A DNA stretch of 54,594 nucleotides from Kiritimatiellia bacterium. GTDB lineage: Bacteria; Verrucomicrobiota; Kiritimatiellia; RFP12; UBA1067. The position numbers and the translations under genes were made by a program. A model generated the notes under the pieces. That model saw nothing but the letters and a program-made list of their open reading frames with translations. It was not told where the DNA came from and did not search any database. The DNA lies in assembly GCA_017628025.1 (NCBI GenBank), contig JAGBZX010000042.1, positions 1-54,594 of the forward strand, read 5' to 3'. Shown here piece after piece: positions 1,098-38,203 of the stretch. How positions within the stretch are numbered: position 1 is the first letter of the stretch; each line of letters begins with the position of its first letter.

Positions 1098-3059
1098 TTA
1101 CAACCTAAATCTAAAGATAGCTGGCTCAATAAAATGTATTTTTGTATCTAGTATAATCTTATTTTCTACATTCTTGAATTTAACATCTTCCCAATTACCA
1201 TTATCCCCCAGTCTTTCAATTTTACTAGGCTTAGAACCATTAGGCAATATAAGCGGCAATTCGTCTAACGAATCATGCCCCGTATCAAGAACTGCCAAAA
1301 TACGGTCTCCTGCCTTGCAAACTCCCCACTTCAACAAAATTTCAGCATCCATCGGGTAATATGGCGCATCATAACCTAGCTTGCAAAGATACTCGATAAA
1401 CTGAGCCTTGAACGTCTGGTTATAAAAGCTAAACGGCGCGCCAAGCCCCACACCGGCAGGCAGACAATTCGCCAACACCAGAATCTCCCCTCCTAATTCA
1501 TTGCAAAACCTTATCGCACCAGGAGTCAGCGGCAGTGCCTCTTTCGTAAGCCCGGAAACACGATGGTAATACATTGATAATATTTCCGCCTTTGGACTAA
1601 TGTTAGTTATCTTTACAGGATTGGGCTTCGTCATTATAGGACGTTTATTTTCTAATATAACTTCATACGAGGCTATCTTGCCGTCCCATTTCTCAATCTT
1701 ACAGCCGATTTCTTTCGCAAAGCCGCGCTTTACCAGCGCCATTGCTCCCGCACCATCAACAATAAGCTTTTTTGAAAGCAATCCCTTTATGTCGTCATCT
1801 GACAAAAGTTTGATATCACCTCCCGACAACGCAGCGATATTACTCTCGGCCTTGGTGTTGGCATACGCTATGCCCATACGTCCTAAAATCGCGCCGCCCC
1901 AATTTGAAAATGACTTTTGAGTTTTCAGCGAAAAATACGGTTCTTTGGGCAGCGGAACCTTAACTCCTGACCAGGTAACGGACAATTTCTCTATCGCCTG
2001 ATAAAACCCCTTGTAGCGAGATAGAATCTTACGATATGCCAGTCCGCTTTCCACCTCCCACTGGACATTACGCGTTATCCAGATCTTGGCACCCTTGCAC
2101 CCTTCCAGAAGCGACATGACAATGTGACAATTCAAATCGCGCGCACTCATGGAATATCTATTCTGCGGACACGTGTCCGGCTCAGCCAAAACTATTATGT
2201 CTTCATCTATGCTGGCTAATTGGATCGCCGTTTTATGAAGCCAATCCGGAATATTCCTCGCCGTCTCCTGACAATATCTGCCGTTATTTAATCTGACTAC
2301 GGGCCGTTGTCCCTTCGCAGCAACCGCTCGTGCTATCTGGCTAGCATGGCGGGCATCACTGACCGTGCAGCAAAACATACCAGGCATCTCCGGATTGCCC
2401 ATGCCATCACGAATTATATTTACCAGCCCCATTATCGAATCTTCCAACACCCTATCGTATATGCGCGCAAGTTTTAGATCCGTTTTAAGACTTGCGACCA
2501 AATCTGCCCTGCTCCATTTTTTACCTGTTTGCCGCTCCATCTCTTTGAGATGCAGCGGACAGAAACATCCATCCCGACCCGTGATTAAACGAGTATCGTC
2601 GTCAACCATAAAATAGTCAGGACGAACTTGAGAAAGCGTTTCCACCTGATTTTTTATGTAGTTCCTGAACTCTTCTCCTAATGGACAAAAAATATACTTC
2701 TCGCTGCCGTCAGAAGCAATTACTTTCTGCCATGGCGTCTTACTGTTTGGCACCCACCCATGTCCCATGGTAGCCTGAAACATCAGACCAAATCTGCCTT
2801 CGCCCATTAGCCCTTTCATTTTCATCAAGCGCGGCAAATAAGCCTTCGCCTTGTCGAAAACCGGATCACCTTCTGGCGTTAGCGTAACAGAAAACGCAGA
2901 GCTGTCTATTATGGTATTTTCGAAAAGCCAACGCTGATCGGCAGCTATCTCTTCTTCATGGCCCTCCTGGATGCCGACAACATTAAGCCACCTAGAAAGC
3001 TCCGTCGCATTTGCATAACATGACGCGACAAAAACACTGGCAATAAAAAATAGTCTCAT
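1098..3059 (-). CDS. Secreted TIM-barrel, glycoside-hydrolase-like protein
   Basis: A protein of 653 residues starts with a signal peptide (MRLFFIASVFVASCYANA), so it acts outside the cytoplasm. AAGGAG five bases before the ATG supports the start. Residues 40-350 look like a (beta/alpha)8 barrel of the GH42/GH-A type: a strand ending in DYFMVDDDTR (near 155) is followed by a Cys-containing GCFCPLHLKEM segment, and later comes a strand with IDEDIIVLAEPD. This layout is frequent in large uncharacterised secreted protein families of Lentisphaerae and Planctomycetes. The C-terminal third looks like beta-sandwich modules. I cannot name the family, substrate or catalytic residues. It is the last gene of the long minus-strand run, 21 bases after murF. 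Confidence 0.6.
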   Translation of the reverse strand: MRLFFIASVFVASCYANATELSRWLNVVGIQEGHEEEIAADQRWLFENTIIDSSAFSVTLTPEGDPVFDKAKAYLPRLMKMKGLMGEGRFGLMFQATMGHGWVPNSKTPWQKVIASDGSEKYIFCPLGEEFRNYIKNQVETLSQVRPDYFMVDDDTRLITGRDGCFCPLHLKEMERQTGKKWSRADLVASLKTDLKLARIYDRVLEDSIMGLVNIIRDGMGNPEMPGMFCCTVSDARHASQIARAVAAKGQRPVVRLNNGRYCQETARNIPDWLHKTAIQLASIDEDIIVLAEPDTCPQNRYSMSARDLNCHIVMSLLEGCKGAKIWITRNVQWEVESGLAYRKILSRYKGFYQAIEKLSVTWSGVKVPLPKEPYFSLKTQKSFSNWGGAILGRMGIAYANTKAESNIAALSGGDIKLLSDDDIKGLLSKKLIVDGAGAMALVKRGFAKEIGCKIEKWDGKIASYEVILENKRPIMTKPNPVKITNISPKAEILSMYYHRVSGLTKEALPLTPGAIRFCNELGGEILVLANCLPAGVGLGAPFSFYNQTFKAQFIEYLCKLGYDAPYYPMDAEILLKWGVCKAGDRILAVLDTGHDSLDELPLILPNGSKPSKIERLGDNGNWEDVKFKNVENKIILDTKIHFIEPAIFRFRL

Positions 3060-4138: not shown

Positions 4139-5356
4139 CTAAATCAACTTAAATTGTTTTTGATTCTTTGTTTTAAAAATAACATAAACTAATGCTATAA
4201 CTAATGTAACTGTTGTATTTAAAGAATCTATCGACCTGAACGCATATTCCGATAAAGGGAAATTAACGCCCATATACGCACAAAGACCGCGCCAAGCCAA
4301 AAACCCTCGCGAAAGAACAAATAAAGAGCTAACAAAAAGTATCCTCAACATCTTTGAACTAGGATTTTTAAGTAAATCCTTTAGTATCGCATAAACTAAC
4401 AAATAACATATTGCATGACCATAAACTTGTGTGTATGTCCATGAAGAAGCAACAACCAACGAAGGCATGATAAAAATCAAATAATCATTCTCATCTCTTA
4501 AACGCCAGGTCATAAAAACACAAAGTAAGATGCCAATAAAAAGCCCTATTAAAATATCTATTGAATTTGAGAAATATCCACAAAAAATAAGCGGCCATGT
4601 GCCAGAGCCATAAAAAAGTTCTGCATTTGCCGCAGGCCCTTGTATTAAAAGCTCTATGAGTGAAGTCTTACATAGATACGATGGCAAAAGAGATGCACCT
4701 AAGCAAACTGCAACGGCTATAAAACATGCGAAAAACTTTTTACGAATCAATAAAGGTATCGCTAAAAGAATCGCAGATTGGGGCTTAACCATAGCAAGTG
4801 CCCAACAAACTCCAGCTACAACTTGATTGCCTTGAGATAAAAAACGTGCCGTTAAAATTGAAAACAACAAAACAAAAACCACAAAATTTCCCACAGATAC
4901 ATTTGACCAAAGCAAATATGAAACTACTATAAATGGAACTAATGAAATAATTTTTTTATCATCTTCATCAAAAGTATCATCTAAAAATGACCTTGTTATC
5001 TTAATAAGAAAAAAACAAGACAAAAGCATTAAAAGAGAATAAACAAACCAAGCAACACCTCGCGGCAACAACGCAAATGCCATCATATACGAATACTCCC
5101 AAGGAGCATAGGCATTAACCATCTTTGTAAAGCCCTCTGGCACTGGCTGCTTAGGAATGTTTGAAACATATGGATGTAGTCGCACTTCTTCATTCCATAT
5201 ATCAAAAGGATTGACGCCCTTTAACAAACATTCAATTTCATTTATTCGCAAATTAAAATCGACTCTCTCTGCTGGAGGGAAAACACAAGTAACAGCCATG
5301 AAGAAAATTAAAAAAGCTGTTAAGAGGAGTAAATAAAATGAAAGATTCTTCTTCAT
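4139..5356 (-). CDS. GT87 (DUF2029)-type polyprenyl-phosphate-sugar glycosyltransferase
   Basis: A polytopic membrane protein of 405 residues has about ten hydrophobic segments. After the first membrane helix comes a periplasmic loop (30-85) with DFN and NPFD-like motifs. The middle contains WALAMVKPQSAILLAIPLL, the conserved lysine-proline signature of the DUF2029/GT87 family, whose known members are mannosyltransferases using polyprenyl-phosphate-mannose. Its start codon overlaps the stop of the upstream GT2 gene (TAATG at 5358-5354). That neighbour is a dolichol-phosphate-mannose-synthase-like enzyme and could make the lipid-linked donor used here. Donor and acceptor are inferred from family and context only. 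Confidence 0.75.
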   Translation of the reverse strand: MKKNLSFYLLLLTAFLIFFMAVTCVFPPAERVDFNLRINEIECLLKGVNPFDIWNEEVRLHPYVSNIPKQPVPEGFTKMVNAYAPWEYSYMMAFALLPRGVAWFVYSLLMLLSCFFLIKITRSFLDDTFDEDDKKIISLVPFIVVSYLLWSNVSVGNFVVFVLLFSILTARFLSQGNQVVAGVCWALAMVKPQSAILLAIPLLIRKKFFACFIAVAVCLGASLLPSYLCKTSLIELLIQGPAANAELFYGSGTWPLIFCGYFSNSIDILIGLFIGILLCVFMTWRLRDENDYLIFIMPSLVVASSWTYTQVYGHAICYLLVYAILKDLLKNPSSKMLRILFVSSLFVLSRGFLAWRGLCAYMGVNFPLSEYAFRSIDSLNTTVTLVIALVYVIFKTKNQKQFKLI

Positions 5357-6081
5357 TAAGCGAAGAGGTTATATCTAACTATGCACCAAAGAGCCCTGAA
5401 ACCGTCTCGCCAGCCAATCTTCTTGCCCTCATTAAATGTTCTAGGGCGATAGCTAATGGCGATTTCTACGACCTTCCAACCATAAATGCGCATACCTTTT
5501 GCGACATAAGCTATGCACTCTGGCTCAAAGCCAAAACGCTTCTCTCTTAGCATAGGCGTGATTTTGCCAATCACATCAGCAGTAAATAGCTTATAACAAG
5601 TTTCCATATCCGTTAATGTCATATCAGAGAACATATTGGAAAACATCGTAAGAAACTTATTCATCATCGTGTGCCACCACCTAAGAATTCGACGCTCTGA
5701 CTGCTGCAGATAACGAGAACCAAGTACGACTTGAGCTCGACCCTCTGTTAATGGGACAAGCATTTTAAGATAATCCCTTGGGGAATATTCTAAATCAGCA
5801 TCCTGAATACAAATATAATCGCCAGTTGCAACAGAAAAGCCAGTTTTAAGAGCCGCGCCTTTACCTTGATTTACAGAATGTTGAAAAACTTTAATTTGAT
5901 CATTCTCTTTTGATAGATTCATAGCCAGCTCATAGCTTCCATCTTTAGAGCAATCATCAACAATTATAATTTCTACTAAGATATCATCTCTAAACGCCTC
6001 TAACACCTCGTTAACTATCTTTGCGAGGTTTTCTGCCTCATTATAGCAAGGTATAACAACGCTAAGCTTACCCGACATCAT
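5356..6081 (-). CDS. GT2 family, polyprenyl-phosphate sugar synthase (DPM1-like)
   Basis: A GT-A fold glycosyltransferase of 241 residues. It opens with LSVVIPCYNEAENL, followed by IIVDDCSKDGS, NQGKGAALKTGF and the DxD-type metal site QDADLEYSP (near 115). The segment GSRYLQQSERR plus MNKFLTMFSNMFSDMTLTDMETCYKLF matches the dolichol-phosphate mannosyltransferase group, including the conserved D-x-x-x-CYK element. There are no C-terminal membrane spans, so it probably acts at the inner membrane's cytoplasmic face. The start overlaps the stop of the upstream gene (ATGA). There are two adjacent ATG codons, 6081 and 6078, and either could be used. Confidence 0.85.
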   Translation of the reverse strand: MMSGKLSVVIPCYNEAENLAKIVNEVLEAFRDDILVEIIIVDDCSKDGSYELAMNLSKENDQIKVFQHSVNQGKGAALKTGFSVATGDYICIQDADLEYSPRDYLKMLVPLTEGRAQVVLGSRYLQQSERRILRWWHTMMNKFLTMFSNMFSDMTLTDMETCYKLFTADVIGKITPMLREKRFGFEPECIAYVAKGMRIYGWKVVEIAISYRPRTFNEGKKIGWRDGFRALWCIVRYNLFA

Positions 6082-7682
6082 ACGCGCTTGCCTTTACCAT
6101 TAAAAATTGCATAAACTAGAATAAAAATACCGCACAAGAATGATAAAATATTTAAATACGCTGGAAGTGATAACGTTATTGGAGATTTATTCTCTTGTGC
6201 TTTTTTTATTACTCCTACTAAAACTGGCTGCCCATTTCTAGTGTTAGAAAGTAGCACTAGGCGCTTAGATTGAACCATTGCCCTTACATTTGGATTCATA
6301 AGCTCTGATGGATTAATAATTGTCATATCCATCATTGCCCCTTGGCGTCGCGCCTGACCAACATAGATTGGAGCACAATAAACTGCATCTCGGCGAACTA
6401 AATCAACAACTCCAACAATTAAAAGTATCAAAACTAAATGTGGTATAAACTTTAAGAAATTTGCTTTAGTATTAAAAGTATTAACGAGAAAATCTACACC
6501 AAAAGCTGCCAACACGCATATTGAAAACTCTGTTAAATGATGCCATTTAACAGGCGCTCTTAAATAATCGCCGAACGGCAAAAGATAAACGCACCTATAA
6601 AGTAGTTCAAAATATCTACCAAAAGAAAGCAAACAAAAAACTATGGCACTAACAAAAAAGAACATAACAAATTTATCTTTTCGAATAAGGCCAAAAATAA
6701 TACCTATAAGCGCAAGTACACAAGTCACCAAGCCAACATATAGCGAATGCTGGCGATAATTGCCTTCTTTTGCACCATATGGTCTACCGAGACTACCCGT
6801 GTATGGCTTCACTCCAGTTTGATAATATGAACCAGACAAAAGTGTCACTAGGCAGCTGGTATCTCCATTAATGCGAGGGATAAAAAACTCAATGGCTTCT
6901 TCTGGGGGAAGAGACCAATTTGTAACAAAAATCCAACGCTTTTCATCGTTAGTTTTATCATTTACATTAGTTAGAGTTTGACCTTGTGAAATTTGAGCAT
7001 CACGCCCTGCAAGATCTTTAAAAATCGCATTATAAAACCCTGATGAGCCAACAATAAAAAGAGCAACTAGCGCAATGAGCATACCTTTAAAAGGAATTTT
7101 TTTATGCTCAATAAGTCTAAAAATAAAATACGAAGCTTCAAACACCGAAAATAAAAGCCAAAGATCGGTTTGCCAATAAGACGCCCATCCAAGCGACGCG
7201 CCTAAAAGAAGCCAATTCTTAAGTTTGCCCTTTTCTAAGGCTCTATCAATTAAGCCAAATGGGAATAACCCATAAATCATCCAAATAAACCAACTACCGT
7301 GGCCTGCAGAAAAAAGCGTAAACCAATAACCTGAAAAAGCCAGTAGTAAAGCACCGCCATAAGAAGCTAACCTGCTAAGTTTTCGGCCCCGCAAAAAATA
7401 CGCCGTTGCTAGCGCGGCAAAATAAGGGCCAATGGCATAATTAAACTCTTGCCAAAAAAAAGGAGAACCTACTAACTTATATACGTCACTAGGTAGAAAC
7501 TTGCCATTATCTGCCCATTGCCTCAACCATTCAGAAAACCAATAAGGCGAGTATACAATTGGACTATCTGGCATCACAGGGGCAAAATCAAGCGACCACG
7601 TGCCCCAGAAAACGAAAGCCGCCCCCACTGCGTATATCGCAGTGAAGGCGAGGAACCAAGCGTACTTTGGCCTAAGCCGCAT
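6078..7682 (-). CDS. Polytopic membrane protein, YfhO/GT-C-like
   Basis: This 534-residue protein has about 11-12 membrane spans with a large extracytoplasmic loop (roughly 230-330) and a C-terminal hydrophilic stretch before the last helix. The layout and its place directly upstream of GT2 and GT87 genes suggest a GT-C-fold or YfhO-like protein for lipid-linked sugar transfer or polymer decoration. No diagnostic motif was recognised, so the function is not assigned. The ATG at 7682 is the same base as the end of the atpK stop codon, so translation is probably coupled. Confidence 0.6.
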   Translation of the reverse strand: MRLRPKYAWFLAFTAIYAVGAAFVFWGTWSLDFAPVMPDSPIVYSPYWFSEWLRQWADNGKFLPSDVYKLVGSPFFWQEFNYAIGPYFAALATAYFLRGRKLSRLASYGGALLLAFSGYWFTLFSAGHGSWFIWMIYGLFPFGLIDRALEKGKLKNWLLLGASLGWASYWQTDLWLLFSVFEASYFIFRLIEHKKIPFKGMLIALVALFIVGSSGFYNAIFKDLAGRDAQISQGQTLTNVNDKTNDEKRWIFVTNWSLPPEEAIEFFIPRINGDTSCLVTLLSGSYYQTGVKPYTGSLGRPYGAKEGNYRQHSLYVGLVTCVLALIGIIFGLIRKDKFVMFFFVSAIVFCLLSFGRYFELLYRCVYLLPFGDYLRAPVKWHHLTEFSICVLAAFGVDFLVNTFNTKANFLKFIPHLVLILLIVGVVDLVRRDAVYCAPIYVGQARRQGAMMDMTIINPSELMNPNVRAMVQSKRLVLLSNTRNGQPVLVGVIKKAQENKSPITLSLPAYLNILSFLCGIFILVYAIFNGKGKRV

Positions 7683-8137
7683 TACGCAATTTTGCCAAGC
7701 GCAATAAGCGCGAAAACCATCGTAAAGATAGCAACCGTCTCAACGATACCAAGCGCGGCAAGATAGTTTGTAAAGCCTTGATTTGTTTCAGCCTGTGCGT
7801 CACAAGCACCTGCCCCAGCACGCCCCTGGAAGAGAGCTGAAAGACCGATACCAAGACCAGAAAAAATACCTGCGACAAGAACAGGAAGCCCTGCACCAGC
7901 AGAAACATTGCCGACCTTACCAAGCATAATAAACATAAGAATCATACCGTATAGAGTCTGCGTAATAGGTGCACCAACAAACGAGAGAAGAAGAAACGGT
8001 GCTGGCTTATTAGCTGCATAACACTTCTTCCATGCGCCTACTGCGGCTGCTGCGGCGTAACCAGTACCAAATGCGGAACCTGCCGCACTCAAACCCAAAC
8101 AGGCAATCGCGCCTGCAACAATCATATATGCATCCAT
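7682..8137 (-). CDS. atpK: V-type ATP synthase subunit K (Na+-binding rotor proteolipid)
   Basis: This 151-residue protein has two tandem helical hairpins (four spans) and is the membrane rotor subunit of the V/A-type ATPase. The essential carboxylate is Glu133 in LAALGIVETVAIF. Thr59, Gln60, Gln104 and Glu133 fall at almost the same spacings as the Na+-coordinating Thr64, Gln65, Gln110 and Glu139 of Enterococcus hirae NtpK (44 and 29 residues here; 45 and 29 there), so Na+ coupling is likely. It follows atpI by four bases. Reading frames on the opposite phase in this region are Ala/Gly-rich shadows. Confidence 0.93.
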   Translation of the reverse strand: MDAYMIVAGAIACLGLSAAGSAFGTGYAAAAAVGAWKKCYAANKPAPFLLLSFVGAPITQTLYGMILMFIMLGKVGNVSAGAGLPVLVAGIFSGLGIGLSALFQGRAGAGACDAQAETNQGFTNYLAALGIVETVAIFTMVFALIALGKIA

Positions 8138-8141
8138 TTTA

Positions 8142-9812
8142 TTACTCCTTTGTTTTCTTAAACGGTTTAAAAGCGTACCCCGCCCAGGATATGCCCTTGT
8201 GATTAGAAAATTCTAGCGTATTAAGTCTTACTGCATGAACAAGTATCGATAGACCAGCCATAGCAAGATTTAGCCCGTGGCCAACAATAAGTATCGCCAC
8301 CATCAAAACTGACATTATTGCTTTAATATACCAATCATCTGCGCCTAAAAGAAGTCCTGTCGCCATAGAATTGAAGTTTTCTGCAACCTTAACTGACGCT
8401 AGCCCCACCGCAAAAAGTCGCACATAAGAGATAATATCACCTAAGGCACTCATAATATTAAGAGGCAACATACCCAACTCCGCACCTCGCGATTTAAGCT
8501 CTGCTGGCTTAACAGTAAATCCAAAAACTGCGATAAGCGAAACGCCAAAAACATAAAACATTACTTTAGGAATCGAAGCGAAAATACCTACAATTGAATT
8601 AGTTACGAAATACATAAATAGCAGTATACCCGCCCAACCGAATTCTGCAATTGCTGTCGAATCGTTTATCTTACAGATACCATTCCATAAACGCGCCAAA
8701 ATCAAATGGCTGACACCAATTGTAAAGCAAAGTAACATCATATTTTGGTAACTTGGATCTGCTAACCATTGCACAGTTGGCCAATCTTTAAACCATGGTA
8801 TTTGAGCGCCGAACCAAGTATTAGAAAGTAACCCCCAAAGGACAGTTGACGCAGAGAAAACTGTCATCATAATTAGCCAAGATCTAATAACTAAATTACC
8901 TGGGTTTTGACGATATTTCTTCCACCCAAAAAGCGTAGCAGCTAAAAATATAGCACCGTATGCGCCATCACCCACTAGCATCGCAAAAAACAAGGAGAAA
9001 TAACACATAAATGGCACTGAAACATCAGCCTCTGTATAGGCAGGAGCAATGCCTAAGCCATCAAAAAGCGCCTTAACAGGCTTAAAGAATTTCGGTGGTG
9101 TGACTAGCGTTGGTGGATTTTCTTCTGTCGTTGGGTCTCTTAAAAGAACACCCCAACCATTCTCTGAAGCTACCTTGCGCAATTTCTCAAGCGAAGTTTC
9201 CGCAACCCAGCCAGAAATAACAGCCAATTCACCTTTGGAAGACATAATCTCTGCGGCAGCTTCAAATTTTATGCGATCCTCAAGACTTGGAAACTCGGCA
9301 AGAATTAATTTCTCATCTACCAAGGCGAGTTTTGAGTCAACTATGCGAATTCTGTTTTCAACGCGATCTAGTTTCTCAATAAATTTCGAAAGCCTCATTG
9401 ATGGAAGCTTTTCTGGAAGCTCAACATAATCTCTAAGACCTGCTACATCTTTAAGTAATTTCTCTGCTAGGACAGGATCGAAATCACCATAGCAAGAATA
9501 TTTGCGAATTTCTGCATTAAGTCGGTCGCGCTCTTCTTCTAACTTTGCTTTATCTGCAGCTAAAGCCAGAACGCCGCCTACTGAAAGAGGCCTAAGATCA
9601 GCATCCTTGTCTTCTGAATTTTCGCGCGCCTTACGCACTAAACGAACTGCTGTTGCAGCGTCAGCAGCCTCTCTACGAGCATCCGCAAACGACACACCAG
9701 AAGCCTCAGACAAATCAATATGCACTGCACCAAGCTCGCGAAGACCTAGAAGCGTCGCTTCTTTAGAAGAGGCGATGCAAATAAGATCAAGATGTTTCAT
9801 TGGCACGATCAT
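8142..9812 (-). CDS. atpI: V-type ATP synthase subunit I (stator a/I subunit)
   Basis: A protein of 556 residues, shorter than the usual 600-660. The N-terminal half is cytoplasmic with coiled-coil segments near 45-170 that form the peripheral-stalk arm. The C-terminal half has about seven to eight membrane spans. Arg465 in IISYVRLFAVG is the conserved arginine facing the rotor carboxylate, and the C-terminus shows the family pattern VHAVRLNTLEF followed by GYAFKPF. The start codon overlaps the atpD stop (ATGA at 9812-9809). A second in-frame Met lies at residue 5, and the coupling favours the first. Confidence 0.93.
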   Translation of the reverse strand: MIVPMKHLDLICIASSKEATLLGLRELGAVHIDLSEASGVSFADARREAADAATAVRLVRKARENSEDKDADLRPLSVGGVLALAADKAKLEEERDRLNAEIRKYSCYGDFDPVLAEKLLKDVAGLRDYVELPEKLPSMRLSKFIEKLDRVENRIRIVDSKLALVDEKLILAEFPSLEDRIKFEAAAEIMSSKGELAVISGWVAETSLEKLRKVASENGWGVLLRDPTTEENPPTLVTPPKFFKPVKALFDGLGIAPAYTEADVSVPFMCYFSLFFAMLVGDGAYGAIFLAATLFGWKKYRQNPGNLVIRSWLIMMTVFSASTVLWGLLSNTWFGAQIPWFKDWPTVQWLADPSYQNMMLLCFTIGVSHLILARLWNGICKINDSTAIAEFGWAGILLFMYFVTNSIVGIFASIPKVMFYVFGVSLIAVFGFTVKPAELKSRGAELGMLPLNIMSALGDIISYVRLFAVGLASVKVAENFNSMATGLLLGADDWYIKAIMSVLMVAILIVGHGLNLAMAGLSILVHAVRLNTLEFSNHKGISWAGYAFKPFKKTKE

Positions 9813-10405
9813 GTCGCTGGAACCCTCGATTTTGCTATTTTGCCGCGAGTAACTGCTGCGGTTTGCTCATCACCAAGCGCAATTTTGATAACTCGTATAG
9901 CTTCTTTGCAACCTGGTATTTTAACTTTTTCAAAAAGATTAACTCTCTGAGAAGTAAGCTGTAACTCAACAGAAACCAATCTAAGCTGTTCTTCAAATAC
10001 GATTCTCTCAGCCTTTAGATTAAGCATTTTTAAAATCGCATCTGACGCGTCATCAAGCCACGCTGGCGTGCTCCATGTATCAACCCTCTTAACTTTAGCA
10101 TCAATACCCTCAAATGTTGGAATTGTAACGCCAGCAATATTGGCGGTCGATGTTTTAATTTTTTCAACATCGACTAAACCTTCTAAATAACTCTCTGCAG
10201 TCATTAATAGTCCAGCCCATGTAGAAATTTCTTCGCGAAATTTCTCTTCACGAGACGCTACATCTTCTGCCTTTTGTGAAATCGACGCTATTTCAGATTG
10301 AAGTTGAAGTTTTTTAAGTTGAAGCATAGGCAAGAAGCGCTCAAAACGCTTTAGCGCATCCATCTGCGCCTTAAGTTCTGTTTTGGTTAGTTTAATTCTT
10401 GCCAT
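9809..10405 (-). CDS. atpD: V-type ATP synthase subunit D (central stalk)
   Basis: A protein of 198 residues made almost wholly of long amphipathic helices at both ends (about 1-75 and 125-180), as expected for the central stalk that turns inside the A3B3 head. The N-terminus MARIKLTKTELK and the central GVTIPTFEG turn fit the family. Genes A, B, C, E and F are not next to it: the upstream gene is a PIG-L deacetylase ten bases away. In many bacteria the order is E-A-B-D-I-K, so this locus carries only the D-I-K tail, and the catalytic subunits must be elsewhere if the enzyme is functional. Confidence 0.9.
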   Translation of the reverse strand: MARIKLTKTELKAQMDALKRFERFLPMLQLKKLQLQSEIASISQKAEDVASREEKFREEISTWAGLLMTAESYLEGLVDVEKIKTSTANIAGVTIPTFEGIDAKVKRVDTWSTPAWLDDASDAILKMLNLKAERIVFEEQLRLVSVELQLTSQRVNLFEKVKIPGCKEAIRVIKIALGDEQTAAVTRGKIAKSRVPAT

Positions 10406-10414
10406 ATTAAACTA

Positions 10415-11230
10415 TCACCTCGTCTTAAATGTAGCTGGAGATTCTTGAGGGCGCTCTACAAGCATCGCCTCCGGCAGATTAGCCAATATCCCGTTAGGTC
10501 TAGGCTTACCATTAAAAGTTGTATAAGTCTCAGCGTATTTCACTTGTGGTGAACGCTGGAGCCCGCGCATTTTAGCTTGAGAGACCTTTAGTTTTACAAG
10601 TTCATCATCCTCATTTTGACACTTGTATTTACGAAGCATCTCTACTTTATTATCCATAACCGATGTTATGTCAACAGAGTAAAGAGGCGTCCACGCACGC
10701 GTCTGAGAAAGTAGAACCTCGTAATAATAAAGTTCAGCGCGGCACTTTATACGCTTCATTGCAATATAAGTGGCAGCCGCCGTCATAACGTGATCGGGGT
10801 GGCTATCCACGGGCCAATGAGTGAAAATAGCCACTGGTTTGTATTTATCAAGAATACGAATCACCTGTTCTACTGAAGAACTCGGAGCATAAGCCTTTGA
10901 ATCTATCTCGTCAATAAAATGAGCGGTTGCACCTAAATACGCACACGCCTCACGTTCTTCTTGTACGCGAATGCGAGCTGTTGAGCCGTCAATAAAGCCA
11001 GGCTTGCCTAAACCAAATTCACCACGCGTGTAATCTACAATATGAAGGTTGTATTTGCCCGTCTTAGCCAACAAGAACGCTAACCCGGCAAAACCTTCGC
11101 TGTCATCTGGATGAGCACCTATAAAAACAATATTTGGCCGCCCTTCAATAAACGCAGGAGTATTTGATGCTGTCGCAGTAACTACTGACATCATCAATAT
11201 CGAAAGCGCTAGTAGAATAAATCGGTTCAT
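10415..11230 (-). CDS. Secreted PIG-L/LmbE-family zinc deacetylase
   Basis: This 271-residue protein has an N-terminal signal peptide. The family's zinc and catalytic motif AHPDDSE is at 39-45 (His40 and Asp43 zinc ligands, Asp42 general base), and the second motif HPDH is at 144-147 (His147 ligand). Family members remove N-acetyl groups from GlcNAc-containing substrates. Secretion suggests a glycan or cell-wall substrate, but the sequence does not say which. It has its own promoter at 11261-11269, with a short leader and a GGGG-containing ribosome site about five bases before the ATG. The V-ATPase genes follow closely and may be co-transcribed. Confidence 0.88.
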   Translation of the reverse strand: MNRFILLALSILMMSVVTATASNTPAFIEGRPNIVFIGAHPDDSEGFAGLAFLLAKTGKYNLHIVDYTRGEFGLGKPGFIDGSTARIRVQEEREACAYLGATAHFIDEIDSKAYAPSSSVEQVIRILDKYKPVAIFTHWPVDSHPDHVMTAAATYIAMKRIKCRAELYYYEVLLSQTRAWTPLYSVDITSVMDNKVEMLRKYKCQNEDDELVKLKVSQAKMRGLQRSPQVKYAETYTTFNGKPRPNGILANLPEAMLVERPQESPATFKTR

Positions 11231-31098: not shown

Positions 31099-31893
31099 TT
31101 ATTTAGATATTGGCGAATACCTAAAATAGTCTATGCTAAAAACTTGGGGCAAATCTTCTTTATTAGGCTCGCCTACCCACGCATACATAACTTCGCAATC
31201 AAATGTTACATGCAGTGGGCGATGGAATCGGTCATTCTTTCTCGAAAAGACTTCCTTGCCATCAATATACCATTTTAACTCTTCCTTGGTCCAACTGAAA
31301 CCATAAACATGAAATTCTTTAGAAGGATCAAAGTCTAATTTTACATTACAAGTTCTATCTGGTAGCTTTTCAACGCCGCCATAAACGACACCCTCTAAAT
31401 AGGGCGTTTTTAAACAGTGAACAGTCCCATGCCAATCACGCATTGAACCAAATATTTCAAACATATCGATTTCTTCCGAGAAATCACCTACACGAAATTT
31501 CTTTTCTGGCTTGTCTGACAACGGATCATAAAGCCAAAATGCATTACACACCTTTGCTTTCATAGCCTTTGCTTTACACTCATAATAACCGTAGAAAAAC
31601 TTCTGTTTAGTTCTTACATAAGCCATAGCATATGTGGTAAAACCGCGCCGGGTATTCTCAACGGTTTTTTCATCTTCTCTTAAAAGCCTACCAGTAAGAT
31701 TCAAGCAACCATTAGAAACAGCAACATTGTCTCTAGAAAACAGGAAACCACTTGAGCGACCTTGAAAAGACGCTACCCAATCTGTCCAAACATTTGTATT
31801 TAATAGATTACCTTCAAAATCATCAAAAAAACCTTCAGTTGCATTAGCAACTAATGATGTTAAAACAACAAAAAGAACTAAGCATTTTTTCAT
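31099..31893 (-). CDS. Secreted GH16-family glycoside hydrolase
   Basis: A protein of 264 residues with a signal peptide (MKKCLVLFVVLTSLVANA) and a jelly-roll fold of the GH16 type. The catalytic motif ExDxxE is present as Glu141-Ile-Asp143-Met-Phe-Glu146 (EEIDMFEIFG), and the later FHVYGFSWTKEELKWYIDG is also typical. GH16 members cut beta-1,3/1,4-glucans, agars, porphyrans or keratan-type glycans; the sequence alone does not fix the substrate. It overlaps the FkbH-like gene (ATGA) and follows the CE15 fusion, so a polysaccharide role is plausible. Confidence 0.9.
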   Translation of the reverse strand: MKKCLVLFVVLTSLVANATEGFFDDFEGNLLNTNVWTDWVASFQGRSSGFLFSRDNVAVSNGCLNLTGRLLREDEKTVENTRRGFTTYAMAYVRTKQKFFYGYYECKAKAMKAKVCNAFWLYDPLSDKPEKKFRVGDFSEEIDMFEIFGSMRDWHGTVHCLKTPYLEGVVYGGVEKLPDRTCNVKLDFDPSKEFHVYGFSWTKEELKWYIDGKEVFSRKNDRFHRPLHVTFDCEVMYAWVGEPNKEDLPQVFSIDYFRYSPISK

Positions 31894-33296
31894 ACTTCCT
31901 CCATACTTGTAAATGTAAAATAATGAGTTTTTATTGATCTTCTATTTTTAATTAATGTTGTATACTTTCGCTCTTCTTCTGTAAAACTAATTAACTCAAA
32001 TCCTGCTTCGTCAAAGAAGAATCTAGACGGCTCGTTACGACCACTCTTCTTCCAGATAGCATCAAGTTGCTCTATTTTTCTCTCTTTTAAAAATTCGCAA
32101 ATTTTCTCAATAAAAGCGTATTCAAACGTCCTATTCATCGAACGGCAACTTATTGCAAAATCAATTAGTCTAGCGTTGTCATTAGAACATTCTATAACAG
32201 CAAAGGCAACATTGCCTAAAGAAGAAAATCTATCTTTTACACTAGCGCACAAGAGAATAAAATTTGGCAAGCTATAAAATTTCGACAAATCATCTACGCT
32301 ATATCTATTTGAGCAAACATTAAATTGGTTAGAACGCTGAGAAAGCTGAGAAAGACGAGATAAATCTTCTATAGTAGCTTCGCGCACTTCAGCGCTCATA
32401 TTTAATGACTTATAGTAATCTGATATAGGAAGCTTCTCTGCTAGTTCCTTACGCTTAATATCAGCCTTATAAGACTCAATACGAATAGCATCCTCTTTTG
32501 TTGTCGCTTTAGGCGGGAAGCGCACAGAAAGTTCAGGAGGAAACTCTGAAACAATAACATCTGGGCAGGCTGAACGCATCATCATACGCTCTACTGGATT
32601 ATCATCTATAAAAAGAAAATCCTTAAGTGTCATATTAAGCTCTTGAGAAAGCTCTTTAATCGCTAGCGTCTTATCGCCCCAGCCAATTTTAACCTTCGCA
32701 AAATCCGTTAATTTTAAAGCAACATCATCTCTTAAAAAGGCCTGCTCTACTATGCTTTTTTCATTCCTTGAGATAATTGTTAAAACTACACCTCTCTGTT
32801 TAAGAGATTTAAGTTCATTTATAAAATCTATTTTAGGTTTGATAGATTCTACTCCATCTTCGCTAACTACACCAGCCCAAAGCGTTTCATCTAAATCCAA
32901 AGCGATTACTTTAATCTCCATTATCACGCGGGCAATCTCTTTAAGACCTTCTAACGACCATGGCATTAAGGCTAGTTTCCACATGCGCTCGTCATAAAAG
33001 CGATCACCTAAGTCCATTGCAATTTTTTCAATTTGTGGAACGACTAATTTTTCCTCACCGAACTGGCGCCTAAGAGAATCTAAGGCTCTTTCTTCAAATG
33101 ACTCCCTTGGCGAAAAACGAGTATCCAACAAAACATAAATAACATCAGGAGAAAAATCAATTAATTCCTTAGGCACATCTAAAGCATACTGTACCCAGGC
33201 ACCATGCCCTGGCGGAGTCCAAACGCGGCAATAATCACCAATAAACGAGCTTAATACACTCGTTGTTACATTGGAAAATATCGCAATTCTTCGCAT
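31890..33296 (-). CDS. FkbH-like HAD-family protein with GNAT-like C-terminus
   Basis: A 468-residue protein. The N-terminal part (about 1-120) is a short SGNH-like domain. The HAD subfamily IIIC domain has DLDETLW (134-140), SRNEKSIVEQAF and FIDDNPVERMMMR. The C-terminal part has LSQRSNQFN and IDFAISCRSMNRTFEYAF, the acyltransferase-like region of FkbH. Known FkbH proteins load glyceryl groups from 1,3-bisphosphoglycerate onto acyl carriers; others lie in polysaccharide clusters. No carrier protein gene is next to it, so substrate and role are open. It shares one base with the start of the gene before it. Confidence 0.83.
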   Translation of the reverse strand: MRRIAIFSNVTTSVLSSFIGDYCRVWTPPGHGAWVQYALDVPKELIDFSPDVIYVLLDTRFSPRESFEERALDSLRRQFGEEKLVVPQIEKIAMDLGDRFYDERMWKLALMPWSLEGLKEIARVIMEIKVIALDLDETLWAGVVSEDGVESIKPKIDFINELKSLKQRGVVLTIISRNEKSIVEQAFLRDDVALKLTDFAKVKIGWGDKTLAIKELSQELNMTLKDFLFIDDNPVERMMMRSACPDVIVSEFPPELSVRFPPKATTKEDAIRIESYKADIKRKELAEKLPISDYYKSLNMSAEVREATIEDLSRLSQLSQRSNQFNVCSNRYSVDDLSKFYSLPNFILLCASVKDRFSSLGNVAFAVIECSNDNARLIDFAISCRSMNRTFEYAFIEKICEFLKERKIEQLDAIWKKSGRNEPSRFFFDEAGFELISFTEEERKYTTLIKNRRSIKTHYFTFTSMEEV

Positions 33297-36200
33297 TATT
33301 TTTTATTTTCGCCCCACAACAAATCTGCCGCATTCATATAATTATTCCAGTCTTCAAGCAATAGATCGTGCTTACCTTCTCTAACATGAAAAGAGATAGG
33401 TCCTAAAATTTGCGTTCCCGCCTGAGGCATCTTCTCCGGTAATGAAACTTTTTTGTTAAAAATAGACCACACATCTTTAGCGGCTCTTAAACTTTCATAT
33501 TCGCCTTTGGGATCTGCGTGGATATCCTTCGTCGCTACTCCAACAGCAATGGCTCTAGGTGCAATAAGAGAAACAGCTTCATGTTGATCAAACTTTAAAG
33601 TCTTTTCCGTCGCCCAAGATTCTGCAAATGCCTCTGTAAACCAAAATGCATCCTGACAATTATCGCGATGTGACAAATGCGACTCTATGTTTTCACCAAA
33701 TTCTCTTTTATGTAACGCTACACCTCCGCACCCGGAATTATTTGGACAGACCAATCCAAATCTTTCATCAATAGCACCTGCCCAAAGCGCAGTCTTACCA
33801 AGGCGCGAGTGACCAATAACAGCTGCTCGAGAGGCATCAATTCTAGGCTCCAATGTAACGTAATCTAGCATTCGTGACAATCCCCAAGCCCACGCTCCAA
33901 TAGGAGTGTACTTTATCTGTGGCCCGTCAACTAATGACTCATCCATAAAAAGAGCAAAAACCGAACTGCGGCCAACCCCGATAAAATCAGGATAAAAATC
34001 GTGATAGCAAACTGTCGCAACTGCATAACCGCGCTCTATAATTTCTTTATATGGCCATCGCCTAGCTGCTGAACCAACATCATAACCATTTTTTAATATT
34101 GTAAAGTTAGGCCCCTTCATTGATTTTGGTGATGCTTCAAAATCAACCTTGAATTTTATAACATCATTTTCTAATGTTGTAGCGTGGTTGCCTCTAAAAT
34201 TCAATCCGAGAAAGATAGGCGCTGGCGCCTTTGTTTTATTTGGGATATATAATAGCATCGTAGCTTCTAATGTCTTGCCCGTAGTACCTTTAAAACGCAT
34301 CAAAATCTCACGCCTTGTAGCCAAGCCTTCTAACGCATCTTTTTTCTCATTCAAAACCTCATACGTTACATCAGTAGGACTTGGCAATTGATAGCCATAC
34401 TCTCCTATAGCAAGTTTTTCAAGTATTTCTAATCGGCGACTTTCTCTCCATTTTTGGGAATCAACATTTCTACCATCAATTGATTCCAAGGGATCAGACA
34501 ACGTATATTTTGGCACCTTAGTCTCATCAAGATTCCATCTCTTTATTAAAGCGCTTAAACTTGTTCTTTTCCATTCGTTTCTTCGCCCATCAATGCCATA
34601 CTTAACAGGCTCAGCACTAACAGCAGAAATAATATTTTGCGGCGCCGAAAGCAGTTCTTCTCGCCATGATGTTATAAGCTTTGCGTAATGATGCCCCAAT
34701 ATAATCGAAGGACGTTTTTTTACAGTTCTTTTAACTAGAACATTTAATCTTCCCTGCTTAAAGAAATTCGTATAACTCACGCTTATCCATTCCCCTCCTG
34801 TTGGAAAATCAATCTTAACATCCCTTGGCATATGCTCTATGCTTGAATATCCATATGGGAATTTAATCAAAATAGTCTCTTCCTCATCATTGGTACCATT
34901 AATACTGATTGGATTGTCACGAGATTCAGCAGAAATTTGTGGCAATGACACATCCCAGCGCTCGAGATTAAAGCTCATAATCCCAGCATTTTGTGAGGCT
35001 GCTGCAGATACTTTGCATTCATAAGACCTAATTCCTGGATATGAATCAACATCTGTCTTTAATGGACTAATGGCTTTAGCCGATGTAGAAACTTCATCAA
35101 GAACATTCATATAATGCCTAAAGCGATCTTCAGGAAGCATCTCTTTATAACGCTTACGAAATAGCCCAAGCATTGAGCCATAAATAGTTTCGTTATATTT
35201 TAAGTCAGCATCACCTTTTTCATCTAAATCATACTCTAGTTGAATTTTATTTAATTCTTCAAGCCCTTCTAACGACTTTATAAAACCAAACTTTCCATCC
35301 ATTGGATCATAATACTCAGCCCCATCCATAGATGTCGCACCTATTGGAGTATACTCATTTTCTACTCCGATAAAAGCGTTACCTCTAGGCGTCTTTACTA
35401 AGCAAAAAGGCTTTGCATAATAACTTGGATTGGGATAGCTTTCTTTATTAAGTTTTCTTTCTTCTACGCAAGTATCATCGCTATTCTCTGCGAAAACAAC
35501 TTTTGCATCATAGCCCGAACCGTTTAAAAGCGAAACTAGTGTCCTAATATAATCAAGGCGCGAAGCATATCTTTCTTGTAGCACTCTTTCTGGTGCCGTA
35601 ATATGCTTTTCTAGAGGCATTGCATATAGGCCAGGACCTATTACGCGCACATTACGTGCCATAAACTTGCGAATTTCTTCAATAGTTCCCTCAACTTTTT
35701 TACAAGGCTCTACTATTGATGCCTTACGCATTTTCTGCATATGCCTCTGCCAGTTAGCAGCAGATAAAGTATATGAATTTCTCCAGAGCTTACCGGCTGG
35801 CAAATATTGTTCTTCCCTAAGCCTTTTTGGATTTTTAATATCATATATATCAGAATTAATTATTAGTTTTATGCTCTGGGCTGGCTCAAACGAATCAAAA
35901 TACCATGTCTTAAGAAACGGCACCGGAGAATTTCTTATTTTCCTTGCAATCTTAAGTGTAATGATACTACCCTTCTCTACACCTGGCAAATTAACAATCA
36001 ATTTCTTACCTGCTTCATACCTTGGAGATGCTGCCGCCCAGGAAGCATCCATTAGATTAATTTCCTTAGGCGAAAGTTTAAACACCTTGCCTGTTTTATT
36101 TGATACGACAGCATTTAAAACTTCTATTTCAGCAATTGACGGATGGAAATCTATTTCTACCTCAGATGAACTTTTTAAACCGTTATAAGTTAGAACTTCT

Positions 36201-38203
36201 CTAACAAATTCGTTTGTTTCAACCCAGTCATAATCACTTTGCGTGTAAACCTCATATACTTTACTAATTAGTTTGGTGTCTGCATTTTCATTAATATTTC
36301 GCTTAAATATGCAGCTGTCTTTTTCTGTTTTATCAAACTCTTTGAGCGAATTCTTTAGCATGTGATACTCGCTTACGGAAAACTCCATTTTGTTAAGAGT
36401 TAGTGCTCTTCTTAATGACAGCTTACCATTTTTTACATTGAAGTTACGCTCATACACAAAGCCTTCGCCAGCCTTGCCAGAGGTTGGCAGCGATACAACT
36501 TCGCCAGCATATTCTCCTAAATCTATTTCTAGATCTTCTTCAACATGCGCTGTAGTATCTATTACAAGCGGGTATTTACGTTTTTCAAGCGATGTACAAC
36601 CATCAATCAAAACTCTTAATATTCCGATACCTTGAGTTATTAAAGGCAACTTAATCTCAACAAATTTCTCGCCCTTGACAGCCATACCAGGCACTTTAGC
36701 GGTAAGTTTCACTTTAAGAGGCTTTGATGTATCTCGAACCTCTGATGGTTGTATCTCATAATCTATCAATTCTGCAGATGGAGAGAGCTTCTTTAATCGT
36801 TTTTCGAAAAACAAAGCTCTCTCATCTTTCGAAAAACGAGCAAATGCCCCTCTATAGGCAGTATCATTAATTCCTAGGAACGAAATCTCTGAAACGACAA
36901 CCATCCCCGCGTCTTTATTAAGACTAGCGCGTGTTTTTGCAAAAACCGAATTCTCAAGTGGATTAGGAACTCCTGAAACTCTAAGCTCATCTCCCTCGGG
37001 GCGAGCGACTAAGTAACTTAAATTACATAAATATGAAGGCATTGGATCTTTCGTATTTTCATTAGTTGGATCCATTAGCTGCAAGGAGCCATCTTTATTT
37101 TCTAAAGCAACAATCGCATGATTGAAAAACGGCAAAGGTACACTTTCGTCTAATTTTGCTCCAACATTAATTAAAACAGGAAATGCTTTATGGCCTGCAA
37201 TTCTTAGCATTGCTACCAAAAGCGCCGCCTTGTCGCGGCAAACACCATAGCGATTCTCAAATGTAATATTAACATCATGTGGAGCATACCCAGGAGACTT
37301 GTCCTCCATCGTCAACCCCATATAACGAATCTCCTGCGAAACAAATCTAAAAATATTAATAGGCGTTTTTAGTTTTAACGCCATATTCGTAACCGCAGGC
37401 GTCGCCTTCTCAATGTGAGGCAGACTCAAATTCCAATACCAGCGGGAGAAATCCTTCCAATCTCCAACAGTTGACAGAAGTATATGCTGACATTTAGTCC
37501 ATACATCAGGCATACTATCTTCTGGAAACATGCGCGGGGTGTTTGTTGCAGCAAATATATGAACAATCGACCCATCGTCAAGTGTTTTCGTACTCTCAAC
37601 AACATTGCCTATTGGATTACGAACTTTAGCTTTCTTAATAGGCAAAGCTTTAGGTGCAGTAACCTCATAATATGCCGTAATTGATGGGCTAGTGCCTTCA
37701 ATAACAAAACAATCGGCAAATTCATTCTCAACACGACTATTATAAGTCTTTCGTGTAACTTTTAAAGATACAATATCTCCTACCTTAACTCCTGGAACAT
37801 TGCAGACGACCTTCCTATCATGGGGATCGACAATATTGGATTGCATCGACGAATTATCAGTAGTGTCCTTTACTAATTTTGAGATGTCAATTTTATCTAC
37901 AGAACCATCAAGACGCTCTAGTGCAATTTCCTCAAACTTTGCTTCACCATAACGGCGATTATAACTTATCGTTTGTGTGCTTTGTAACTTTCTGCCGCGC
38001 TCTGTAAGAATAAGTATACGCATTTGGGCAACGGAAGTATAAGTGCCATCTATGTTATACTTTACTCTTTCAATATCATCTAGAACGACAACATCAGCAT
38101 TTTGAAGAAACTCTGGCGGTACTTGCGTGCGAGGCGTTTTAGACGCCTCCACAGATAAGACCGCCGTTACCAGAAACGCGACAGAAAGTAAAAAGCTTTT
38201 CAT
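33296..38203 (-). CDS. Giant secreted fusion: two DUF3857/transglutaminase-like modules plus CE15-like esterase
   Basis: The protein has 1635 residues and a signal peptide (1-20). Module 1 (about 35-420) is DUF3857 followed by a transglutaminase core with Cys322 (RYGVCRDKAALLVAMLR), His362 (FFNHAIVAL) and Asp378 (LMDPTNE). Module 2 (about 650-1195) repeats this layout, but the cysteine position reads RYASRLDY, so it is probably inactive. The C-terminal domain (about 1225-1635) resembles glucuronoyl esterases (CE15): GHSRLGKTALWAG with Ser1466, and His1612 in EGKHDLLLEDW. DUF3857 proteins and CE15 enzymes are normally separate, and I know of no such fusion. The frame is continuous over 4.9 kb. 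It starts on the mrp stop (TAATG). Confidence 0.82.
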   Translation of the reverse strand: MKSFLLSVAFLVTAVLSVEASKTPRTQVPPEFLQNADVVVLDDIERVKYNIDGTYTSVAQMRILILTERGRKLQSTQTISYNRRYGEAKFEEIALERLDGSVDKIDISKLVKDTTDNSSMQSNIVDPHDRKVVCNVPGVKVGDIVSLKVTRKTYNSRVENEFADCFVIEGTSPSITAYYEVTAPKALPIKKAKVRNPIGNVVESTKTLDDGSIVHIFAATNTPRMFPEDSMPDVWTKCQHILLSTVGDWKDFSRWYWNLSLPHIEKATPAVTNMALKLKTPINIFRFVSQEIRYMGLTMEDKSPGYAPHDVNITFENRYGVCRDKAALLVAMLRIAGHKAFPVLINVGAKLDESVPLPFFNHAIVALENKDGSLQLMDPTNENTKDPMPSYLCNLSYLVARPEGDELRVSGVPNPLENSVFAKTRASLNKDAGMVVVSEISFLGINDTAYRGAFARFSKDERALFFEKRLKKLSPSAELIDYEIQPSEVRDTSKPLKVKLTAKVPGMAVKGEKFVEIKLPLITQGIGILRVLIDGCTSLEKRKYPLVIDTTAHVEEDLEIDLGEYAGEVVSLPTSGKAGEGFVYERNFNVKNGKLSLRRALTLNKMEFSVSEYHMLKNSLKEFDKTEKDSCIFKRNINENADTKLISKVYEVYTQSDYDWVETNEFVREVLTYNGLKSSSEVEIDFHPSIAEIEVLNAVVSNKTGKVFKLSPKEINLMDASWAAASPRYEAGKKLIVNLPGVEKGSIITLKIARKIRNSPVPFLKTWYFDSFEPAQSIKLIINSDIYDIKNPKRLREEQYLPAGKLWRNSYTLSAANWQRHMQKMRKASIVEPCKKVEGTIEEIRKFMARNVRVIGPGLYAMPLEKHITAPERVLQERYASRLDYIRTLVSLLNGSGYDAKVVFAENSDDTCVEERKLNKESYPNPSYYAKPFCLVKTPRGNAFIGVENEYTPIGATSMDGAEYYDPMDGKFGFIKSLEGLEELNKIQLEYDLDEKGDADLKYNETIYGSMLGLFRKRYKEMLPEDRFRHYMNVLDEVSTSAKAISPLKTDVDSYPGIRSYECKVSAAASQNAGIMSFNLERWDVSLPQISAESRDNPISINGTNDEEETILIKFPYGYSSIEHMPRDVKIDFPTGGEWISVSYTNFFKQGRLNVLVKRTVKKRPSIILGHHYAKLITSWREELLSAPQNIISAVSAEPVKYGIDGRRNEWKRTSLSALIKRWNLDETKVPKYTLSDPLESIDGRNVDSQKWRESRRLEILEKLAIGEYGYQLPSPTDVTYEVLNEKKDALEGLATRREILMRFKGTTGKTLEATMLLYIPNKTKAPAPIFLGLNFRGNHATTLENDVIKFKVDFEASPKSMKGPNFTILKNGYDVGSAARRWPYKEIIERGYAVATVCYHDFYPDFIGVGRSSVFALFMDESLVDGPQIKYTPIGAWAWGLSRMLDYVTLEPRIDASRAAVIGHSRLGKTALWAGAIDERFGLVCPNNSGCGGVALHKREFGENIESHLSHRDNCQDAFWFTEAFAESWATEKTLKFDQHEAVSLIAPRAIAVGVATKDIHADPKGEYESLRAAKDVWSIFNKKVSLPEKMPQAGTQILGPISFHVREGKHDLLLEDWNNYMNAADLLWGENKK

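Follow-up and report, generated by a model that had tools for sequence, protein, structure and literature searches.

Domain content and gene context of the fused reading frame

The locus raises the question of whether one secreted protein really joins two transglutaminase-type modules to an esterase of family CE15, and, if so, whether the two halves form a working partnership or were brought together by a chance event. The window, i.e. the whole 54,594-nucleotide stretch of Kiritimatiellia DNA analysed here, contains at 33296-38203 of the (-) strand a frame of 1635 codons running from ATG to TAA with zero internal stops. Pfam placed on it two DUF3857 domains (total E 2e-34), a single Transglut_core at residues 283-340 (E 7e-8) and a CE15/GCE_fung match at residues 1435-1581 (E 4e-29). 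An open frame of this length and with such domain scores lies far outside what chance would give, and Pfam together with the PDB search bore out the predicted order of two DUF3857/transglutaminase modules and a CE15 domain in one frame. The features are the following.

33296..38203 (-), fused ORF, (DUF3857-transglutaminase)x2 plus CE15, 1635 aa (Pfam and PDB matches)
38144..38203 (-), signal peptide, residues 1-20, MKSFLLSVAFLVTAVLSVEA, predicted by eye, without a lipobox cysteine
37454..38098 (-), DUF3857 domain 1, residues ~36-250 (Pfam; structural match to 3KD4)
37004..37453 (-), transglutaminase-fold module 1, residues ~251-400 (Pfam; Cys322/His362/Asp378 invariant in 30 proteins)
37238..37240 (-), codon of the putative catalytic Cys322 (30-protein alignment)
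36296..36961 (-), DUF3858-like beta region 1, residues ~415-636 (Pfam E 0.13, below the cut-off; 3KD4 match)
35804..36283 (-), DUF3857 domain 2, residues ~641-800 (Pfam, best stretch 657-782)
35279..35761 (-), transglutaminase-like module 2, residues ~815-975, without the aligned Cys and His (alignment, module homology)
34616..35266 (-), beta region 2, residues ~980-1196, where the ancestral protein ends (relatives' stops; last strand 1191-1196)
34592..34615 (-), linker, residues 1197-1204 (AEPVKYGI), where the two parts join
33299..34591 (-), CE15 esterase domain, residues 1205-1635 (6syr, E 6e-80; 61-62% identity to free-standing genes)
33806..33808 (-), putative nucleophile Ser1466 (GHSRLGK), aligned to OtCE15A Ser267
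33524..33526 (-), putative catalytic acid Asp1560, aligned to OtCE15A Asp356
33368..33370 (-), His1612, aligned to OtCE15A His408
31890..33296 (-), neighbouring gene, FkbH-domain HAD-IIIC protein, starting on the stop codon of the fused ORF
31099..31893 (-), neighbouring gene, GH16, with an ExDxxE motif (EIDMFE)

The fused ORF overlaps the genes on both sides by one base, as TAATG, and the preceding gene encodes a NUBPL/Mrp-type ATPase. The GH16 gene had been described as lying beside it; the FkbH-domain HAD gene (31890-33296) intervenes, so that GH16 does not adjoin the fusion. Secretion, also predicted, is supported by the putative N-terminal signal peptide, which matches a hydrophobic helix at residues 2-21 of the structure model, and the ancestral signal peptide would carry the whole fused chain out of the cytoplasm. 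Elsewhere in the window, positions 1098-3059 encode a 653-aa protein without a convincing Pfam match.

The transglutaminase half, one intact module and one that has lost the aligned Cys and His

Residues 21-1196 are an internal duplication, residues 30-636 aligning to 637-1200 over 538 columns (hhalign, 98.7%). By Pfam and alignment, module 1 consists of a DUF3857 domain and, after it, a transglutaminase fold with Cys-His-Asp. The triad Cys322/His362/Asp378 was found intact at the positions first proposed for it, each residue being invariant in 30/30 aligned proteins. In the structure model of this half (mean pLDDT 82.8, pTM 0.54), Cys322 stands at the start of a helix, with His362 and Asp378 on or beside the next two strands, as in transglutaminase folds. 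In our judgement, which is not a computed value, module 1 is likely to be enzymatically active; the DUF3857-transglutaminase proteins may be peptidases rather than acyl transferases.

Module 2 has its own DUF3857 domain and is homologous to module 1, yet it does not have the full Cys-His-Asp set. The loss of the cysteine had been anticipated, and the alignment of 30 proteins extends it to the histidine: neither the aligned Cys nor the His occurs in any of them (0/30 each), and a Cys one residue earlier occurs in 2/30. Since both residues are missing in every aligned relative, the loss is old and not recent, and module 2 is, as judged from this alignment, a conserved pseudoenzyme.

The closest structural counterpart is the DUF3857-transglutaminase-DUF3858 protein BDI_1141 (3KD4), which has the fold and domain order of residues 34-635 (VIA Z 22.5, rmsd 4.3, 477 aligned residues). 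It has one module, whereas the window protein and its relatives in the phylum have a second module as well, in which the aligned Cys and His are missing. Oligosaccharyltransferase subunits and M1 aminopeptidases were rejected as relatives because their VIA matches are confined to the beta-rich N-terminal domain. The literature search on DUF3857 proteins returned a single passing mention and no functional data.

Distribution of the transglutaminase protein in the phylum

The whole 1635-aa query found a match in 93 of the 96 nearest relatives, a count that includes CE15 matches. A profile built on the transglutaminase half alone was positive (E 1e-50) in 76 of 195 genomes across the phylum, almost all of these genomes having a single match. 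In relatives the protein has ~1250-1300 residues and is encoded by a separate gene, and every intact one stops at query position ~1180-1200. Some genomes have it but no matching CE15 gene. The neighbours of its gene vary between genomes, and the recurrent ones are of housekeeping type, e.g. a pseudouridine synthase; a QueD-like protein is another recurrent neighbour, seen by inspection. No conserved carbohydrate neighbours were found beside the gene in relatives, and none of the carbohydrate genes of the window recurs there. This wide distribution together with varied or housekeeping neighbours is typical of a conserved envelope protein and not of an enzyme of a polysaccharide locus. The transglutaminase half is thus, on its sequence, an old and widespread secreted protein of the phylum, normally in single copy.

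The CE15 domain resembles a competent uronoyl esterase

In the PDB search, OtCE15A (6syr) aligned to residues 1214-1627 (E 6e-80), so that the relation to CE15, seen also with Pfam GCE_fung, covers the whole domain. The esterase that had been predicted is therefore present; its start is at residue 1205, where CE15 homology begins, and not at 1225 as proposed. The domain model has a pLDDT of 78.7 and a pTM of 0.84. The G-x-S-R-x-G-K motif and a Ser-His-acid triad (Ser1466, His1612, Asp1560) are present and, by alignment, the residues of OtCE15A that hold the uronate (PMC6937553) are kept, i.e. Arg268 as Arg1467, Lys271 as Lys1470 and Glu305 as Glu1504. The description of a CE15-type serine esterase is consistent with these residues, and the domain looks competent.

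The motif, the Ser-His-Asp triad and the uronate-holding Arg, Lys and Glu are common to OtCE15A, MZ0003 (6ehn) and the window domain. The latter has one acid, at the position of OtCE15A Asp356 and MZ0003 Asp332, with Asn1489 at the fungal-type Glu position (Glu290 in OtCE15A). In OtCE15A either acid suffices (PMC6937553) and in MZ0003 the acid is at the Asp position only (PMC5722869); a working esterase is therefore expected despite Asn1489, and we judged, again without computing it, that the domain is very likely active. Additionally, the conserved Trp358 in the active site of OtCE15A, which packs on xylan, is replaced by His1562. Considering this change, a glycan other than glucuronoxylan may be preferred, and the substrate preference may differ from that of OtCE15A; pectin-type roles have been proposed for some CE15 enzymes (PMC10807430). 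Most likely, on these residues, the domain is an ordinary uronoyl esterase exported by an older protein. Another CE15, more distantly related (41%), is encoded by the same genome in a frame of 859 aa (L079, G000:C17:22730-23425).

The join compared with free-standing genes in relatives

In the model residue 1196 closes the final strand of the first half, and the motif DGRRNEW begins at 1205, leaving a linker of 8 residues. The nearest transglutaminase relative, in genome G007 (52%), terminates in VSAREDVSR, which aligns from about residue 1192, just before and into the linker. The nearest CE15 homologues, at 61-62% identity, are free genes of G007 and G036, genomes whose isolate names (Tb.RUG.121 and RUG11534) are of rumen type. 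Each has its own signal peptide, MKEIVMAMFAIGALASHA in G007, followed directly by the DGRRxEW start (DGRRGEW); no signal peptide of this type is present at the join in the window. In the scan of named genomes for this CE15 subfamily these were the two close relatives, all others being distant; plasmids held distant CE15 only, and the viral contigs scanned held none.

In neither of these genomes are the two genes adjacent. In G036 they occupy two contigs, both genes lying well away from the ends; in G007 it is a glycosyltransferase gene that precedes CE15, at a distance of ~180 bases, the transglutaminase gene not being adjacent. A V-ATPase and glycosyltransferase block is conserved between the window (4139-11230) and G007 (L033, 9361-16604), and the free CE15 gene adjoins it in G007 only, not in the window. 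The original prediction had named two adjacent genes divided near residue 1200, together with a stop or frameshift there in the reads, as the pattern that would speak against it. In relatives, the division near 1200 was found, the adjacency was not. A simple lost stop was rejected as the sole cause, because it would have retained an intergenic stretch and the signal peptide, both of which are absent. As the two genes are apart in G007 and G036, either the CE15 gene moved and was then fused, or both happened in one event.

Rarity of the combination and the usual partners of CE15

No DUF3857-CE15 chain was found in 61 genomes of the genus, in 162 of the order, or, using the transglutaminase-half profile, among 18 long-frame CE15 loci of a wider sample; the wider-phylum searches scored the best few candidates per genome, so that rare fusions there could be missed. 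The combination thus did not recur across genomes. Long-frame CE15 proteins of 763-1607 aa were dismissed as further fusions since none contains the transglutaminase half, and so were the 1570-1697 aa frames of relatives, in which the surplus length is upstream of the match and not C-terminal. The literature search likewise gave nothing on DUF3857 combined with CE15, which agrees with the earlier remark that no described protein of this architecture was known. Only the domain combination, seen once, is new.

Fusion as such is common for CE15 in these genomes, where its partners are glycan enzymes: GH106 (L091), GH116 (L098), GH20 (L103), GH28 with the acetyl-xylan esterase AXE1 and DUF4886 (L094), and GH28 with GDSL (L101). 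GH28 and GH106 are pectin-type families. A 910-aa frame (L100) has two CE15 domains in tandem. In the same way, CE15-GH8 of Bacteroides eggerthii (PMC8417218) and Xyn10C-GE15A of Caldicellulosiruptor (PMC8280721) carry CE15 and another enzyme in one secreted chain. The partners in known multidomain CE15 proteins are glycan-active enzymes or binding modules, whereas the window domain, unlike OtCE15A and MZ0003, is fused to a non-CAZyme with a transglutaminase fold.

Origin of the fusion and alternative explanations

The fusion is known from one draft assembly, the only one representing the species (71% complete, 2% contamination, 45 contigs), and free-standing genes are the rule in relatives. 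Both facts speak for an artefact, in which an assembly chimera or a sequencing error joined two separate genes in one contig. Against it, the join is in frame and at the exact domain boundary, it has no stop, no intergenic DNA and no signal peptide, a loss that a single base error cannot bring about, and the start and stop of the fused frame fit both neighbours with their TAATG overlaps. Codon use is uniform across the join and matches neighbouring genes, with GC3 of 0.28-0.33 on both sides and a codon log-likelihood under neighbouring genes of -1.046 vs -1.053 across the join (-1.57 for the G007 gene). No repeat lies at the join, and the junction sequence occurs just once in the assembly. Uniform codon use and a single junction make foreign contamination unlikely and a chimera improbable; we therefore regard an artefact as quite unlikely, and the fusion itself as very probably genuine, both being judgements and not computed values.

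As the fusion was found in no searched relative, it is probably a recent gene fusion and not a new kind of machine. We favour, by judgement and with moderate confidence, a lineage-specific event by which the esterase came to use the export signal and location of an old secreted protein. The CE15 gene would have moved, lost its start codon and signal peptide, and joined the 3' end of the transglutaminase gene. The CE15 domain would then act as a normal Ser-His-Asp esterase on glucuronoyl or galacturonoyl esters of the plant cell wall, while module 1 would retain its ancestral envelope function by Cys-His-Asp chemistry, through peptidase action or acyl transfer, and module 2 would be a non-catalytic structural copy; this role of the first half is inferred. 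The fusion would most likely benefit the esterase, through its export, display or stability, rather than serving a joint reaction.

A joint reaction is what the proposal of a multi-enzyme glycan-processing machine implies: module 1 and CE15 would share one target in the plant wall, such as a glycoprotein or a network with uronoyl esters, and selection for this coupling would have favoured the fusion. The active sites of both halves appear intact, fusions of CE15 with enzymes for the same kind of polymer are frequent (PMC8417218, PMC8280721), and a GH16 gene lies two genes away. The proposal found no support in the phylum-wide occurrence of the transglutaminase half and its lack of a conserved neighbourhood: the protein occurs without a matching CE15 gene, its gene has no conserved carbohydrate neighbours, and no second fusion was found. 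We hold such coupling to be unlikely. Still less probable are its more specific forms: cooperation between a cysteine enzyme of transglutaminase fold and a uronoyl esterase on protein- or lignin-linked wall carbohydrate, or covalent attachment of the esterase to the cell surface through the transglutaminase. Equally doubtful is that, after translation as a single chain, a protease cuts the linker and so yields the two separate proteins that relatives have. The two parts are modelled as separately folded units, and SAVSAEPV holds an Ala-Val-Ser-Ala stretch resembling signal peptidase sites; no hydrophobic segment precedes that stretch, however, so the action of signal peptidase I is not expected.

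If the join is confirmed, the borrowed-export fusion that we favour would be a CE15 fusion whose partner is a non-carbohydrate enzyme, in a gut-type Verrucomicrobia-related genome that gained an esterase of a type that cuts plant cell-wall bonds. The fused esterase would then offer an easy assay for the destination of a conserved, unstudied secreted protein. The pairing of one live and one dead transglutaminase module (34616-38203 and its relatives), which is phylum-wide, may merit more study than the fusion.
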